A stretch of DNA of 64,000 nucleotides from Muribaculaceae bacterium (GTDB lineage Bacteria; Bacteroidota; Bacteroidia; Bacteroidales; Muribaculaceae). The stretch covers positions 1-64,000 of the forward strand of contig JAGASI010000020.1 in assembly GCA_017621845.1 (NCBI GenBank), read 5' to 3'. Positions 56,343 to 62,878 of this stretch are shown here, piece after piece (positions within the stretch are counted from its first letter, which is position 1; every line of letters begins with the position of its first letter). Below the pieces are notes generated by a model, which worked only from the letters and a program-made list of their open reading frames with translations, had not been told where the DNA came from and did not search any database. A program made the translations under genes and the position numbers.

Positions 56343-57554
56343 TTATTTGTCGAGGTCGGTGAAGAAAGTGGGAATGTTGGCGATGAAGACGTCGGGGGTG
56401 TCGAGCAACGGGCGGTTGGCGATGAGGTCGGCGAGTTTAATAAGGCCTACAACATAGTTTACGCCGGTTGATGAGTATCGCTCGCTGATACTTTCAAATG
56501 GTAATAGCGATGGAATGTCGGTGTCTTTAAACCTTACATATACCTTGAGTGGCAGGTCGGTGGTGTAGGCAGGACGGCCACGGTAGCCCATTTTTTTGTA
56601 TTCATAGCGATAGCCGTGGAGACGTGCCATGACGTCGGAGAGTATCGATGAGGCTGTGGGGAGAGAACCGGCGCCCTTGCCGAACATGAACTGGCGGTCA
56701 TAGCACTCGCCACGTATCACAACACCGTTGTACTCGTCATCAACGCTATAGATGTATTTGGAGCGCGTGACAAATTCGGGCATAACGAACATTGTGAACT
56801 TGTCGTCCCCGATTTTGGCAACCTGGGCCACGAGTTTGATTTTGACGCGTTTTTCGCGTGCATAGTTTATGTCATAGTCGTTGATGTGGGATATGCCGTA
56901 GGTGAATATTTCTTCCGGAGCGACATATACACCGAGTGCATGAACGGTGATGATGATGAGCTTGAACAGCGAGTCATATCCATCGATGTCAAACGATGGG
57001 TCGGCTTCGGCAAATCCTAATTGCTGGGCGCGTTTAAGAGCCGAGTCATAGCTCTCGTCATGGTCAAACACCTGTGAGAGAATATAGTTGGACGAGCCGT
57101 TGAGAATACCCTTGACTTCGAGCAACAGATCGTTGTCATAGTATTCCTCGAGGTTGCGGATAACGGGTATTGAGCCACATGACGAGGCGTCATACAGCAG
57201 GGCGGTGTCATAGCGCCGTTGCAGGTCTATCAACTCGGGGAGATGGCGTGCTATCATAGCCTTACTGCCCGAAACAACGGGTATGCCAGCTCTCAGCGCC
57301 CGGGTTACTATACGATACGAAGCCTCGGCATCGCTGATGACCTCGACGATAAGGTTTATACGTGGGTCGTTGAAGATGTCATCGGGATTTGATGTGAGTA
57401 GTGTCGGGTCAAGGTCGATCGATCGGGGTTTGTTAATGTCCCTGACACAGATACGCTTGATTTCGGCATGGGCGTTACGTGCCTTGCCTATGATTTTTAC
57501 TATTCCGGAACCAACTGTCCCTAATCCGAATAGTCCAATATTTATTGTTGCCAT
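56343..57554 (-). CDS. hom: Homoserine dehydrogenase
   Basis: This enzyme reduces aspartate semialdehyde to homoserine, the branch precursor of Met and Thr. The 403-residue monofunctional enzyme has the NAD(P)-binding GLGTVGSG at 10-17 and the catalytic domain with GILNGSSNYILSQ and GFAEADPSFDIDGYDSLFKLIIITVHALG. No aspartokinase domain is fused. It overlaps metX by 13 nt and ends the metY-metX-hom unit, which is preceded by the Met-codon leader. Confidence 0.97.
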   Translation of the reverse strand: MATINIGLFGLGTVGSGIVKIIGKARNAHAEIKRICVRDINKPRSIDLDPTLLTSNPDDIFNDPRINLIVEVISDAEASYRIVTRALRAGIPVVSGSKAMIARHLPELIDLQRRYDTALLYDASSCGSIPVIRNLEEYYDNDLLLEVKGILNGSSNYILSQVFDHDESYDSALKRAQQLGFAEADPSFDIDGYDSLFKLIIITVHALGVYVAPEEIFTYGISHINDYDINYAREKRVKIKLVAQVAKIGDDKFTMFVMPEFVTRSKYIYSVDDEYNGVVIRGECYDRQFMFGKGAGSLPTASSILSDVMARLHGYRYEYKKMGYRGRPAYTTDLPLKVYVRFKDTDIPSLLPFESISERYSSTGVNYVVGLIKLADLIANRPLLDTPDVFIANIPTFFTDLDK

Positions 57555-58573
57555 AAGAAATTGTAAAGTATAGAGTTAAGTTGGTCATACTCGACCAGAA
57601 AGCCATCATGACCCAGAGGCGAGTCAATATGGTGATAAATGGCGCCGGGTATACGAGCCGTAAGAGCTTTCATCTCAGCGACGGTAAAAATAATATCGGT
57701 AGTGATACCAACGACAACCGTGGGCATGGACAAGCATGCAAGGGCGTTGTCGAGACCGCCACGTCCGCGACCAACATCGTGAGTGTCAAATGTGTCGAGA
57801 ATGGTCACGTAAGAGTAGGCGTCGAAGCGTCTAACCAGTTTGTCGCCCTGATGTTGCTGGTATGTACAGGCGCGGTGGACAGCAGGGATGGTGTCATTGT
57901 CACAATGCGGGTCCTGCTGTGAGATGTTATATCCCTCGGGGCCGCGATAGGTGAGCATACCTATTGCACGGGCGGCGGCGAGTCCACGGGCAGCGGCATC
58001 GGCATGGTGTTCGCCCCAAGTGCTGTCAGCCTTGATAGCCATGCGTTGGGTCTCATCGACAGCTATCGCCCAGGGAGAGGCTTTGGCATCCGTTGCGACC
58101 AAAACCAGGCGGTCAAATCTATGTGGCTCCTGTACGGCCCATTCCAAGGCTTGGAAACCGCCAACCGAACTGCCTACCAAAGCATAGATGCGGCCGATGC
58201 CGAGATGGTCGGCCAACAGTCGGTGGGCATGGACAACATCCCGCATCGTCAAGCGCGGGAAGGTGTCATACCACGGTTCTCCGGAAGCAGGATTTATAGA
58301 CATCGGTCCGGTGGTGCCATAACAAGAGCCGAGGATATTGGCACACACCACAAACGCTTTGGCCGGGTCGAGGAAGCGGCCCGCCTCAATGGTATGTGGC
58401 CACCAGTCGCTGACATCGCTGTTGGCCGTCAGCGCATGGGCTACCCATACACAGTTGTCCCGCCCGGAGGTGAGTGTTCCCCACGTGTGGTAAGCGATGT
58501 CGAGTGACGGGAGTATGCGTCCACTCTCCAATTCAAATGGGTGGGGGTAATGATAAACCTTTAGTTGTGACAT
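57542..58573 (-). CDS. metX: Homoserine O-acetyltransferase MetX
   Basis: MetX activates homoserine with acetyl-CoA for direct sulfhydrylation by MetY. The 343-residue alpha/beta-hydrolase-fold enzyme has the nucleophile elbow GSSVGG with Ser136 in ALVGSSVGGFQALEW. The oxyanion region is NILGSCYGTTGP and the catalytic His lies in SPLGHDGFLVEYDQL. The family contains some succinyl-specific members, so acetyl specificity is the likely but not certain reading. It is encoded 34 nt after metY. Confidence 0.95.
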   Translation of the reverse strand: MSQLKVYHYPHPFELESGRILPSLDIAYHTWGTLTSGRDNCVWVAHALTANSDVSDWWPHTIEAGRFLDPAKAFVVCANILGSCYGTTGPMSINPASGEPWYDTFPRLTMRDVVHAHRLLADHLGIGRIYALVGSSVGGFQALEWAVQEPHRFDRLVLVATDAKASPWAIAVDETQRMAIKADSTWGEHHADAAARGLAAARAIGMLTYRGPEGYNISQQDPHCDNDTIPAVHRACTYQQHQGDKLVRRFDAYSYVTILDTFDTHDVGRGRGGLDNALACLSMPTVVVGITTDIIFTVAEMKALTARIPGAIYHHIDSPLGHDGFLVEYDQLNSILYNFLWQQ

Positions 58574-58607: not shown

Positions 58608-59906
58608 TTACTGTTTTTTTACACCATGGGTTTTTACAGCTTGTTCAAAGTCGGCGATAATGTCCTCGACATCTTCGAGGCCGAGCGATATACGCAGAAG
58701 GGTGGGTGTAACGCCGGCTTGTTTCATATCGCTGTCGCTGAGCTGTTTGTGGGTTGTTGAAGCGGGGTGTGTCACTACTGATATTGAGTCTCCTATCATA
58801 GTCATGTGTGCAAATAATTGCAGAGCTTCAACTACATGTGCGGTGGTATTTACATCTCCGTTAAGTTCAACATTGAGCACCGCCGAACCTCCATGCTTAA
58901 AGTATTTCTGAGCCAGGGCGTGAGAGGGATGGTCTTCAAATCCCACATAGCTGACTGTCTTGACGTATGGCGACTCTCTCAGGTATTGAGCAAAACGGCG
59001 TGTTGACTCTACCTGATGTCTGACTCGCAATGAAAGCGTTTCCAAGCCTAAGAGCATAAGGTAGCTGTCAAAAGCTGAGGGACATGGACCGAGGTCACGC
59101 AGGACGTCAACGCGGCACTTGGCGATGAAAGCGGCAGGGCCGAATGTTTGCCACATATTGAGCCCATGATAGCTCTCGTCGGGACCGTCAATGTCGGGAT
59201 AGCGCCCGTTGCTCCAATCAAAGCGGCCGCTGTCAACTATAATGCCACCCATGGCTGTGCCGTGGCCGTTAATCCATTTGGTAGCCGAGTCGACAATGAT
59301 GTCGGCTCCCCAGTCAAATGGGTTGCACAGGTAGCCGCCGGCGCCGAAGGTGTTGTCGATAACCAGTGGTGTGCCATGACGGTGTGCAACATCGGCCAAA
59401 GCCTCGATATCTACGACATGACAGGTAGGATTGCCCATGCTCTCGGCAAATACCAGACGAGTGTCTTTGTCGATGAGTTTTTCAAAGTCGGCCGGGTCGG
59501 TGCTCGCGGCAATTCTGACCTCGATGCCGAGACGGTCGAGAGTGTGGCGGTATTGGTTGTAGGTGCCACCATAGAGCAGAGGCGAAGCCACGATATTCTG
59601 ACCCTTGGAGGTGAGGTTGAGGACAGTTACCATGATGGCCGACATGCCCGAGGCAAGCGCCAGCGCGCCAATGCCGCCATAGAGAGCGGCCACGCGCTCC
59701 TCATAGGCTGTGTTGGTGGGATTCTGCAGGCGGGTGTATATGTTGCCCGGCTCGCTTAGCTCAAACAGATTGGCTGCATATTCACAGTCTTTAAAACGGT
59801 AAGCGGCGGTGGGATAAATAGCTATGCCGCGTGAGCCGGTAGGCTCCTGGTGATTGAGACCGGCATGGATCTGTCGTGTCTGAAAACCTAAGTTTTTATA
59901 GTCCAT
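58608..59906 (-). CDS. metY: O-acetylhomoserine sulfhydrylase MetY
   Basis: MetY makes homocysteine directly from O-acetylhomoserine and sulfide using PLP. The 432-residue Cys/Met-metabolism enzyme has Lys210 as the PLP base in VDSATKWINGHGTAMGG, and YTRLQNPTN and ESMGNPTCHVVDI as family landmarks. The start codon at 59906 lies 17 nt after the T-run of an intrinsic terminator, so the gene can be transcribed only when that terminator is avoided. It is the first structural gene of the unit with metX and hom. Confidence 0.97.
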   Translation of the reverse strand: MDYKNLGFQTRQIHAGLNHQEPTGSRGIAIYPTAAYRFKDCEYAANLFELSEPGNIYTRLQNPTNTAYEERVAALYGGIGALALASGMSAIMVTVLNLTSKGQNIVASPLLYGGTYNQYRHTLDRLGIEVRIAASTDPADFEKLIDKDTRLVFAESMGNPTCHVVDIEALADVAHRHGTPLVIDNTFGAGGYLCNPFDWGADIIVDSATKWINGHGTAMGGIIVDSGRFDWSNGRYPDIDGPDESYHGLNMWQTFGPAAFIAKCRVDVLRDLGPCPSAFDSYLMLLGLETLSLRVRHQVESTRRFAQYLRESPYVKTVSYVGFEDHPSHALAQKYFKHGGSAVLNVELNGDVNTTAHVVEALQLFAHMTMIGDSISVVTHPASTTHKQLSDSDMKQAGVTPTLLRISLGLEDVEDIIADFEQAVKTHGVKKQ

Positions 59907-59922
59907 AATAATATTTATTATT

Positions 59923-59962
59923 AAAAAAATCCGGTCTGACGGGTTGGTGTCGGACCGGATTT
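59923..59962 (-). terminator. Attenuator terminator before metY
   Basis: In the minus-strand RNA the arms AAAUCCGGUCCGAC (59962-59949) and GUCAGACCGGAUUU (59940-59927) pair with one C-A mismatch around an 8-nt loop, followed by a run of seven U in all. It lies after the Met-rich leader and just before metY, a position that makes sense only for conditional termination. Confidence 0.88.
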
Positions 59963-60011
59963 AGTTATCTGTAGATATATTGCTCTAATTTTAACTCCGA
60001 TCCGACAACCC
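59941..60011 (-). promoter_or_regulatory. Antiterminator pairing of the metY attenuator
   Basis: GGGUUGUCGGAUCGG (60011-59997), the last codons of the leader ORF, can pair with CCGGUCCGACACCAACCC (59958-59941), which is the 5' arm and loop of the terminator. The helices are 6 bp and 9 bp (one G-U) with a 3-nt bulge (CAC). The pairing excludes the terminator. A ribosome at the leader stop codon would cover the first segment and allow termination; one stalled in the Met run would leave it free. Confidence 0.82.
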
Positions 60012-60083
60012 ACGCATCACCATCATCATATCCATAGACATGATGTACATAGACATAGACATTGATGACATGATGCTGAGCAT
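59991..60083 (-). CDS. Met-rich leader peptide of the metY-metX-hom unit
   Basis: This small ORF encodes 30 residues from the ATG at 60083, or 26 from the ATG at 60071. Residues 8-23 read MSMSMYIMSMDMMMVM, and 11 of 30 residues are Met. The stop codon (59991-59993) is 29 nt before the terminator stem. The tail codons after the Met run (GGG UUG UCG GAU CGG) form the antiterminator strand. No Shine-Dalgarno is seen, as is usual here. A leader peptide that samples charged Met-tRNA in front of methionine genes is the natural reading; translation has not been shown. Confidence 0.82.
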   Translation of the reverse strand: MLSIMSSMSMSMYIMSMDMMMVMRGLSDRS

Positions 60084-60100
60084 AATCAGAGGTTGAGTTT

Positions 60101-61810
60101 TTAGGCTTGTTTATATAAATCGAGTTGATCAATATTGAAGTTGGCGATGAAGTCGGCATGTTTGGCAACCTCGGCTTGGCCCATCTTGTTATAGACTTGG
60201 GCTGAGCGAGTGAAAGCCTCGTTACGCTGGGCGTCAAGCAGGAGCAGGTAGCCCATAACGATGTTGCCGGCCATCTCGACGAGACGACGTGCCATGAAGT
60301 CGGTATAAGTCTGGTCGTTGACGGCAAGGACAGTCTCGACAGCTTTTTGATACTGTTCGGTCATGGCGACAAGATTGGATTTGACATCGGCGAGTTCGGG
60401 GCGAACTTCGACTGTCTGCTCGACATAACCATTAATCAGGGTCATGTATGTGCCGGTGGTGACGTGGCGTATGGCTGCTACAACCTGGAGCTGGGTTGTG
60501 CCCTCATATATTGAGGTAATGCGAGCATCGCGGTAGATGCGCTCACAGGCATAGTCTTTCATGAAGCCCGATCCACCGTGTACCTGGATGCAGTCATAAG
60601 CATTCTGGTTGCAGTATTCGCTGGTGAGGCCTTTGGCGAGAGGGGTGAGAGCATCGGCGAGTTTCTTGTAGAGTTTCATCTCTTTGCGCTCGTCACCGCT
60701 CAGAGAGCGTTCTTTGGCGATGTCCTCGTATGCTTTGTATAAGTCAACATAGCGAGCTGTCTCGTAAAGGAGAGTACGGGAAGCATCAAGCTTGGTCTTC
60801 ATGACGGTAATCATTTCGGCCACAGCGGGGAATTCGATGATGGCCTTGCCAAACTGACGGCGCTCACGAGCATATTGGAGAGCTTCACGATAGGCAATCT
60901 CGCTTACGCCTACCGATTGGGCAGCGATGCCAAGACGAGCACCGTTCATCAGGGCCATCACATATTTGATAAGGCCCATGCGGGTGTCGCCACATAGCTC
61001 GGCGGGGGCGTTCTTGTATGTGAGCTCACATGTGGGTGAGCCTTTGATACCCATCTTGTTCTCGATTCGGCGTACATTGACTCCACCGTTACGCTTGTCA
61101 TAGATGAACATTGACAGGCCACGTCCGTCGGTAGTGCCTTCCTCTGAGCGAGCCAATACCAGGTGAATGTCGCTGTCACCGTTGGTGATGAAGCGTTTAA
61201 CTCCGTTGAGAACCCATGTGCCGTCCTCTTTCTTGGTGGCTTTGAGCATCACAGCCTGGAGGTCTGAGCCAGCATCGGGCTCGGTGAGGTCCATAGACAT
61301 GGTCTCACCTTCACACACGCGAGGAATATATTTCTGTTTCTGTTCTTCAGAGCCAAACTCATAGAGGGTTTCGGCACAGTCTTGGAGTCCCCAGAGGTTT
61401 TCAAAACCGGTATCGGCGCGAGAGACGATGTCGGCGGCCATGATGTATGGGGTGATGGGGAAGTTGAGACCACCAAGACGACGGGGCATGGACATGCCCA
61501 TGAGGCCGGCTTTACGGCAGGCGTCAAGGTTGACTTGTGTGCCTGAGGCGTATGTCACGCGACCGTTGGCGACAGAGGGGCCTTCATGATCGACGCCCTC
61601 GGCGTTGGGTGCTATTGTGTTGGCGCATATATCACCTACAATATCCAGTACCTTGTCATAGTTATCCATTGCATCGTCAAAGTCGACGGGTGCATAGTCA
61701 AACTTCTCGGCATCGGTATAGTTACGTTCTTTGAGTTCGACAATTTTGCGCATCATCGGGTGGGTCAGATGGTGCTTGAGATCAGGATTGTCTGTATAGA
61801 AATTAGCCAT
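60101..61810 (-). CDS. Acyl-CoA dehydrogenase (long form)
   Basis: This 569-residue flavoenzyme oxidises or reduces an acyl-CoA/enoyl-CoA pair, exchanging electrons with ETF. FAD-binding signatures are MDLTEPDAGSDL and YARERRQFGKAI; the catalytic base Glu lies in IYEGTTQLQ, as in short/medium-chain enzymes. About 130 extra C-terminal residues form a helical domain, as in the ACAD9/VLCAD-like long class. Its partners etfA and etfB are directly upstream on the same strand. No terminator is visible between its stop codon and the Met leader, 17 nt further on. Confidence 0.95.
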   Translation of the reverse strand: MANFYTDNPDLKHHLTHPMMRKIVELKERNYTDAEKFDYAPVDFDDAMDNYDKVLDIVGDICANTIAPNAEGVDHEGPSVANGRVTYASGTQVNLDACRKAGLMGMSMPRRLGGLNFPITPYIMAADIVSRADTGFENLWGLQDCAETLYEFGSEEQKQKYIPRVCEGETMSMDLTEPDAGSDLQAVMLKATKKEDGTWVLNGVKRFITNGDSDIHLVLARSEEGTTDGRGLSMFIYDKRNGGVNVRRIENKMGIKGSPTCELTYKNAPAELCGDTRMGLIKYVMALMNGARLGIAAQSVGVSEIAYREALQYARERRQFGKAIIEFPAVAEMITVMKTKLDASRTLLYETARYVDLYKAYEDIAKERSLSGDERKEMKLYKKLADALTPLAKGLTSEYCNQNAYDCIQVHGGSGFMKDYACERIYRDARITSIYEGTTQLQVVAAIRHVTTGTYMTLINGYVEQTVEVRPELADVKSNLVAMTEQYQKAVETVLAVNDQTYTDFMARRLVEMAGNIVMGYLLLLDAQRNEAFTRSAQVYNKMGQAEVAKHADFIANFNIDQLDLYKQA

Positions 61811-61843: not shown

Positions 61844-62878
61844 TTACTTGGAATTCTTTTTATAATATTTGATAAGCTTGGGAACGACTTCCTCCATGTC
61901 GCCGGTGATTACATAGTCGGCAATCTTGTTGATTGGGGCATTGGGGTCGTTGTTGATGGAGATGATGATTGAGCTGTCCTGCATGCCGGCTATGTGCTGA
62001 ATCTGACCAGAGATACCACAGGCGATGTATAATTTGGGACGTACAGTAACACCTGTTTGGCCAATCTGTCGGGCGTGCTCGGTAAATCCGGCATCGACGG
62101 CGGCACGTGAGGCGCCTACCTCGCCGTTGAGGGTGCGGGCAAGCTCGTGTAGTAGCTCAAAGTTTTCTTTAGAGCCTACGCCATATCCACCGGCAACGAT
62201 GATGGGCGAATTCTTGATGTTAATCTTGGATTTCTCGATATGGCGGTCGATAATTTCGACTACAAAGTCGGTATCGGCGACATATTTTTTGGCGTCAAGT
62301 TTGATGGCCTGTCCTTTATGGTTGGCGTCATATATTTCTTTTTTCATGACACCCTCGCGCACGGTTGCCATCTGGGGACGACATTCGGGGTTGACGATGG
62401 TGGCGACGATGTTACCGCCAAAAGCAGGACGTATCTGGTACAACAGGTCGGTGTAGTCCTTGCCGGTCTTGACATCAGTGTGGTTGCCGATTTCAAGAGC
62501 AGTGCAGTCGGCGGTAAGACCGCTGTGCAGGCATGAAGATACGCGTGGACCGAGGTCTCGTCCAATACATGTAGCTCCCATGAGGCATATCTGCGGCTTG
62601 ATTTCCTTGAACAGGTTGATCAGTACAGCGGCATGGGGATTGGAGGTGTAGGGATATAGGCGTTTGTCTTCGACTTTATATACGGTGTCTGCGCCATAGG
62701 GGTATAATTGTTTCTCAATACCATCGAGTTTGTCACCGATGACCACTGCCTCGAGCTTGACGCCGAGTTTATTGGCCAGGACACGACCTTTGGTGAGAAG
62801 TTCGAGGCTGACGTCGGCAACGCGGCCTTCGTCATACTCACAGTAAACTATCAGGTTGTTTTGTTCGTTATTTGCCAT
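61844..62878 (-). CDS. etfA: Electron transfer flavoprotein alpha subunit
   Basis: EtfA binds FAD and passes electrons between acyl-CoA dehydrogenase and a redox partner. The 344 residues include the N-terminal domain and the C-terminal FAD domain with GGYGVGSKENFELLHELARTLNGEVGASRAAVDAGF, QIGQTGVTVRPKLYIACGISGQIQH, and SIIISINNDPNAPINKIADYVITGD. The gap to etfB is 31 nt. Confidence 0.96.
   Translation of the reverse strand: MANNEQNNLIVYCEYDEGRVADVSLELLTKGRVLANKLGVKLEAVVIGDKLDGIEKQLYPYGADTVYKVEDKRLYPYTSNPHAAVLINLFKEIKPQICLMGATCIGRDLGPRVSSCLHSGLTADCTALEIGNHTDVKTGKDYTDLLYQIRPAFGGNIVATIVNPECRPQMATVREGVMKKEIYDANHKGQAIKLDAKKYVADTDFVVEIIDRHIEKSKINIKNSPIIVAGGYGVGSKENFELLHELARTLNGEVGASRAAVDAGFTEHARQIGQTGVTVRPKLYIACGISGQIQHIAGMQDSSIIISINNDPNAPINKIADYVITGDMEEVVPKLIKYYKKNSK

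Follow-up and report, generated by a model that had tools for sequence, protein, structure and literature searches.

The leader of the metY-metX-hom operon of a Muribaculaceae bacterium very probably contains a ribosome-mediated (leader-peptide) transcription attenuator, which would read the level of charged tRNA-Met and control the expression of the three genes. This leader was examined in the window, that is, the whole stretch of 64,000 nucleotides analysed here, and in the corresponding loci of related genomes. The supply of methionine in this gut bacterium would, in this case, very probably be read through the ribosome, and the device recurs in dozens of relatives. The anatomy of the leader, the in-frame conservation of its ORF, the compensatory changes in both of its alternative helices, and its linkage to methionine genes are all observed in the sequences, and the translation of the leader, termination at the U-tract, and the response to methionine are predicted from them. 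Leader-peptide attenuators are found in the Proteobacteria in the trp, his, leu, ilv, thr, and phe operons, and methionine does not, to our knowledge, figure among the amino acids usually listed as having attenuators of this type. Its genes are as a rule attributed to control by SAM riboswitches, T-boxes, or MetJ.

The genes of the locus are arranged on the minus strand as follows:

60101..61810, minus strand: acyl-CoA dehydrogenase gene (acd), upstream of the leader
58608..59906, minus strand: metY, O-acetylhomoserine sulfhydrylase, the predicted first controlled gene (NCBIfam TIGR01326)
57542..58573, minus strand: metX, homoserine O-acetyltransferase (best match TIGR01392)
56343..57554, minus strand: hom, homoserine dehydrogenase (NF004976)

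The metY product scores 558 bits against TIGR01326 (cut-off 495), and the hom product 304 bits against NF004976 (cut-off 205). The score of metX against TIGR01392 (343 bits) is under the model cut-off of 500, with MetX models being its best matches, all under their cut-offs. The enzymes encoded by the three genes lead to homoserine, and thence to homocysteine.

The leader itself is composed of the following elements:

59991..60083, minus strand: leader peptide ORF, MLSIMSSMSMSMYIMSMDMMMVMRGLSDRS* (30 codons, 11 of them Met)
60015..60035, minus strand: cluster of Met codons (M D M M M V M), at which the ribosome is proposed to stall
59997..60011, minus strand: antiterminator 5' strand, GGGUUGUCGGAUCGG, within the last codons of the leader ORF
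59941..59958, minus strand: antiterminator 3' strand, CCGGUCCGACACCAACCC, which doubles as the 5' arm and loop of the terminator
59923..59962, minus strand: intrinsic terminator, formed by a hairpin (59962-59927) and a U-tract (59929-59923)

The preliminary description had claimed a minus-strand ORF of 26-30 codons with 10-11 Met, and this is borne out, given that the ORF has 26 codons and 10 Met when read from its second ATG, and 30 codons and 11 Met when read from the first. Its last Met codon lies at 60017-60015 and its stop codon at 59993-59991, and the peptide ends in RGLSDRS*. The pairing of the last codons with the terminator 5' arm and loop, claimed to extend over 15 bp with a 3-nt bulge, was also recovered, with GGGUUGUCGGAUCGG and CCGGUCCGACACCAACCC forming 9 bp, the bulge of 3 nt, and a further 6 bp. 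When the strand is shuffled, only 28 of 5000 versions do as well as this duplex in energy (-27.1 kcal/mol), as do six of the 14219 36-mers of the window, in which GGGUUGUCGGAUCGG occurs without mismatch only at 60011-59997. The U-tailed terminator is likewise present before metY, and its hairpin (59962-59927, with seven U) has an energy of -19.0 kcal/mol; the gap from its last U to the metY ATG (59906) is 16 nt, rather than the 17 nt given initially. The antiterminator and the terminator are mutually exclusive, since both need CCGGUCCGACACCAACCC, and the leader as a whole folds at z = -5.2. The antiterminator strand of the window can also pair upstream, in a manner that is variable among the relatives. 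Neither a conserved pause (1:2) hairpin nor a shared pairing of the GUCACGCAU segment that follows the stop codon was found among the leaders, where both were sought.

In the proposed mechanism, a ribosome would translate the Met-rich ORF as the RNA polymerase moves along the leader. A shortage of Met-tRNA would make the ribosome stall in the Met run. All of the strand at 60011-59997, or no less than its last nine bases, would then be free to pair with the terminator 5' arm and loop, and the polymerase would proceed into metY-metX-hom. With an ample supply of Met-tRNA, the ribosome would reach the stop codon at 59993-59991 and cover the antiterminator strand, so that the terminator at 59962-59923 would form and transcription would end before metY. 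A ribosome with its A site at a given codon covers approximately 12-13 nt downstream. With the A site at the last Met codon (60017), the bases left uncovered would be expected to include UCGGAUCGG or the greater part of it, and stalls at earlier Met codons would free more of the antiterminator strand. The geometry claimed at the outset, in which a stalled ribosome exposes the strand and a ribosome at the stop codon covers it, fits the positions 60017, 60011-59997, and 59993-59991, with the footprint being taken from general knowledge. If this mechanism is correct, these bacteria must couple transcription to translation tightly enough for ribosome-mediated attenuation to operate.

A scan of one genome per species provided 80 named loci, mostly from the Muribaculaceae and Alistipes (Rikenellaceae), and 43 distinct leaders from these two groups keep the Met run, the antiterminator, and the terminator. 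The same arrangement is found at nearly all the metY orthologues of 68-77% identity, both in the genus of the window and in other genera of the family. A class-1 leader is also present in a cultured strain, Alistipes sp. An66 (L113). A comparable leader is absent at the metY homologues of approximately 44% identity of the same family, and at some orthologues of 64-69% identity (L014, L015, L016, and L042). The typical leader peptide ends in MMxMMCMCSRxSRV*, its length ranges from 11 to 54 residues (L007, among the shortest, is cut by the end of its contig), and its N-terminal part is variable. In the 40 leader loci with enough downstream sequence, metX is the next gene in 39, and hom is found downstream in 39. 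A peptide HMM run over 393 genomes of the order was too weak, and missed even the window, and the leader-peptide HMM matched only the known copy in G000. When the covariance model R1 (family and phylum) was used, matches below approximately 35 bits were mostly bare terminators, and its match at L175 was rejected as a GATGAC repeat read in frame. In two leaders (L038 and L039), the terminator-like hairpin is followed by a poor U-tract, and termination is doubtful. Two loci of the genus of the window (L153 and L165) have a class-1 Met leader before metX, rather than metY.

The Met-rich ORF is not a product of chance, since 37 of the 43 related upstream regions contain an ORF with a minimum of 12 codons and 30% Met, and no such ORF appears when these regions are shuffled with their dinucleotides preserved. 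Across the leaders, 319 ATG triplets lie in frame, against 13 and five in the other two frames. The share of Met is 34.5% over the final 16 codons and 12.6% over the rest, and the enrichment thus depends both on the frame and on proximity to the 3' end of the ORF. The Met columns that match the cluster of the window are nearly invariant in the alignment of 35 leaders (A4), and the spacing is constant, with the last Met in columns 22-24, the antiterminator strand in columns 34-43, and the stop codon in columns 46-48. Met often alternates with Cys codons (MCMC), for which both TGC and TGT are used, and Cys may also be sensed through these codons, in which case a shortage of Cys-tRNA could act in the same way. 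The codon immediately before the antiterminator strand is the less favourable stall site. A 14-codon Met-rich ORF (MEMMIELSCMPAMC) at position 61956 of the plus strand of the window, antisense to etfA, has none of the other parts, and is taken to be a chance occurrence.

The alignment of the metY upstream regions, put forward in the preliminary description as a check, revealed that the Met codons are kept in the relatives and that compensatory changes occur in both helices. In the alignment of 35 leaders, the antiterminator helix is paired in 75% of the cells (24-50% in slid controls), and the terminator helix in 94.6% (25-56% in slid controls). Cells in which both partners have changed number 28 in the antiterminator, against 14.4 in shuffled data, and 44 in the terminator, against 15.7, with none of 500 shuffles reaching as high a value in either case, in tests that control only partly for kinship. 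Most of the leaders pair GAGCC with GGCUC, and the paired strands are GGGAACC/GGUUCCC in L009, GUGUCGGU/ACCGACAC in L010, GCCGUGCC/GGUACGGC in L011, and AUGGUCC/GGACCGU in L066. Because compensatory changes are found in both the antiterminator and terminator helices, the middle strand covaries with both its partners, and this pattern of substitution indicates that both alternative helices are under selection. The antiterminator core common to the leaders is approximately 7-9 bp long, and the 15 bp of the window are the longest seen; in Alistipes, the antiterminator is only approximately 7 bp, and the flanking pairs mismatch. Next to the core, the contiguous pairing in the Muribaculaceae amounts to 99, against 56.8 +/- 4.7 when the partners are permuted, although the choice of anchor in this permutation maximised the pairing, which favours the true partners, and the shuffle tests on the alignment are preferred. 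When the changes are placed on the MetY tree, the independent pairs with good support number only one or two per column; most of them go in the expected direction, and they are too few for a test.

The strong conservation of the end of the leader peptide could also be read as the signature of an arrested nascent peptide of the TnaC type, in which the C-terminus (MMCMCSRxSRV*) itself stalls the ribosome on methionine, SAM, or some other ligand, and the nearly invariant MRMCR* that ends a second type of leader found in Alistipes, described below, points in the same direction. The conserved end coincides with the antiterminator strand, however, which explains its conservation, and the peptide end of the window (RGLSDRS*) differs from the typical form, with a matching change in the terminator arm. 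In addition, the leaders L007 (MCRR*), L035 (MWFH*), and L108 (MRGAIS*) have an earlier stop codon and lose the conserved end, yet keep the RNA strand, which lies at or just behind the stop. Control by a nascent peptide would not lead one to expect such a pattern. As these leaders lose the peptide end and retain the RNA strand, it is the RNA pairing that is selected, rather than the peptide, and the arrested peptide is considered to be very improbable as an alternative to the attenuator that responds to charged tRNA-Met.

The leader of the window lies directly after etfB-etfA-acd, and 17 nt separate its ATG from the acd stop codon. A search for a TAnnTTTG promoter between acd and the leader, and in the 400 nt upstream (60084-60483, minus strand), found none. 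Because no such promoter precedes the leader, the metY operon of the window is probably read from the etfBA-acd transcript, and the attenuator would then probably sit inside an operon, acting on the transcripts that enter from etfBA-acd. Of the 80 named loci, a single one (L074) was found to have an acyl-CoA dehydrogenase gene upstream, and most of the relatives have their own promoter, which contradicts the idea of acyl-CoA dehydrogenase-metY as a conserved context. A TAnnTTTG box of the Bacteroidales type occurs upstream of the leader ORF in 36 of the 40 leaders with enough sequence, where 3.0 would be expected, at a distance of 17-66 nt in all but one.

Given its position directly after acd, the ORF might instead encode a microprotein rich in Met and Cys, such as a metal-binding peptide, with the hairpin being the ordinary terminator of the upstream transcript. 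Clusters of Met and Cys are typical of copper-binding peptides, which the leader resembles in this respect. The promoters of the relatives lie directly before the leader, however, and for this reason the hairpin does not serve as the terminator of a gene further upstream. The ORF is also linked to metY or metX, its last codons covary with the terminator arm, and the variability of its N-terminal part and its range of lengths (11-54 residues) do not favour a functional protein, which leaves the microprotein with a negligible probability in comparison with the attenuator.

No SAM-I riboswitch (RF00162) was found in the window or in any of 59 Muribaculaceae genomes, in a search in which control genomes gave matches. 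The window also lacks T-box, SAM-II, and other Rfam cis-regulatory families at the curated score, with only RNase P and tRNA being recovered, and no Rfam match was obtained in eight related loci, three with a class-1 leader and five with the second Alistipes type. In other Bacteroidota, metY often lies behind a SAM-I riboswitch (some of them recognised by eye). At metY of the Muribaculaceae, a large gut family, the predicted Met-codon attenuator stands in for the SAM-I riboswitch. The frequency of SAM-I riboswitches before metY elsewhere in the phylum would be compatible with a metabolite riboswitch (sensing SAM, methionine, or homocysteine) that uses the terminator, with the ORF being incidental. 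This is extremely unlikely, given the absence of an Rfam match at the leader of the window, the consensus fold of the 35 leaders, which consists of the terminator only, without an aptamer, and the in-frame Met run (319 against 13 and five), which makes sense only with translation.

The proposed attenuator resembles the systems of the Proteobacteria, as known in general terms rather than from an alignment, in having a leader ORF with control codons for the product of the pathway, last codons that form or adjoin the antiterminator strand, and a U-tailed terminator before the first gene, with the ribosome that finishes at the stop codon preventing antitermination. It differs from them in its control codon (Met, often with Cys), its target genes (metY-metX-hom), and its host (Bacteroidota), and in that no conserved pause hairpin was found here. 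The SAM-I riboswitch (S-box, RF00162) is similar in that it also lies before metY and has a terminator, and differs in that SAM is sensed by an aptamer. Candidate Cys leader peptides have been described before cys operons of the Actinobacteria, without an obvious terminator, in a study that lists methionine as S-box-controlled in other species (Seliverstov 2005, PMC1262725). These are also short ORFs with a run of codons for a sulfur amino acid before sulfur amino acid genes, and are distinguished by having Cys codons only and no obvious terminator. Prior to their own case in the Firmicutes, Naville and Gautheret (2010, PMC2965389) knew of no leader-peptide system outside the Proteobacteria and Actinobacteria. 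Within the Bacteroidota, main-text passages report attenuation-like 5' regions before amino acid operons of Flavobacterium psychrophilum (Guerin 2021, PMC9723704) and small ORFs that resemble leader peptides in Bacteroides thetaiotaomicron (Ryan 2020, PMC7366714), and these passages do not describe a methionine leader. No description of a methionine-codon attenuator was found in the main texts of the open-access literature, and an earlier description may exist. Ribosome-mediated attenuation is thus a known kind of control, and the Met specificity and the arrangement in series with SAM-I appear to be undescribed in the open-access literature. On the evidence of its sequence, the device in the window would be a classical ribosome-mediated attenuator with a new amino acid specificity, in a new group of hosts. 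The conserved layout lets annotators name an unannotated small ORF, and predict the methionine regulons of uncultured gut bacteria.

The device extends beyond the Muribaculaceae, to Alistipes and to another class of the phylum, and is also found at metX. A Bacteroidota-wide class of Met/Cys-codon attenuators for the sulfur amino acids, responding to charged tRNA-Met and probably tRNA-Cys, with some members doubled or placed in series with SAM-I to provide two inputs, is favoured here with moderate confidence.

A second type of leader lies upstream of metY in Alistipes/Rikenellaceae, and contains a Met-containing ORF that ends in MRMCR*, with nearly invariant DNA (ATGCGAATGTGCCGTTAGGCAC). It is found at the following loci:

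L106, L109, L114, L124, L125, L126, L131, L133, L136, L138, L139, L141, and L142: second leader type

In this type, a GTGCC/GGCAC hairpin encloses the stop codon, and is followed by one or two variable hairpins, without a U-tract. A search for the pattern in 295 genomes of the order gave no match, and a variant of this leader type was observed in the Prevotellaceae (L090).

In genomes of another class of the Bacteroidota, metY is preceded by two tandem Met leaders, each with an antiterminator and a terminator (L253, L254, and L270/L202, L203). The arrangement was read by eye in the first leader of L253 and in L267, where the automatic scan did not find the right U-tract, and in the second leader of L254, where it chose another pairing. 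Also in another class, a Met/Cys leader attenuator is followed, before metY, by a SAM-I riboswitch with its own terminator (L250, L263, L264, and L267). This series may represent a form of two-input control and, if so, would act as a gate that integrates tRNA charging and SAM. At L178 (about 1436-1614), a leader of alternating Cys and Met codons (MNCCCMCMCMMC...), with an antiterminator and a terminator, precedes a rhodanese/thiosulfate sulfurtransferase-like gene.
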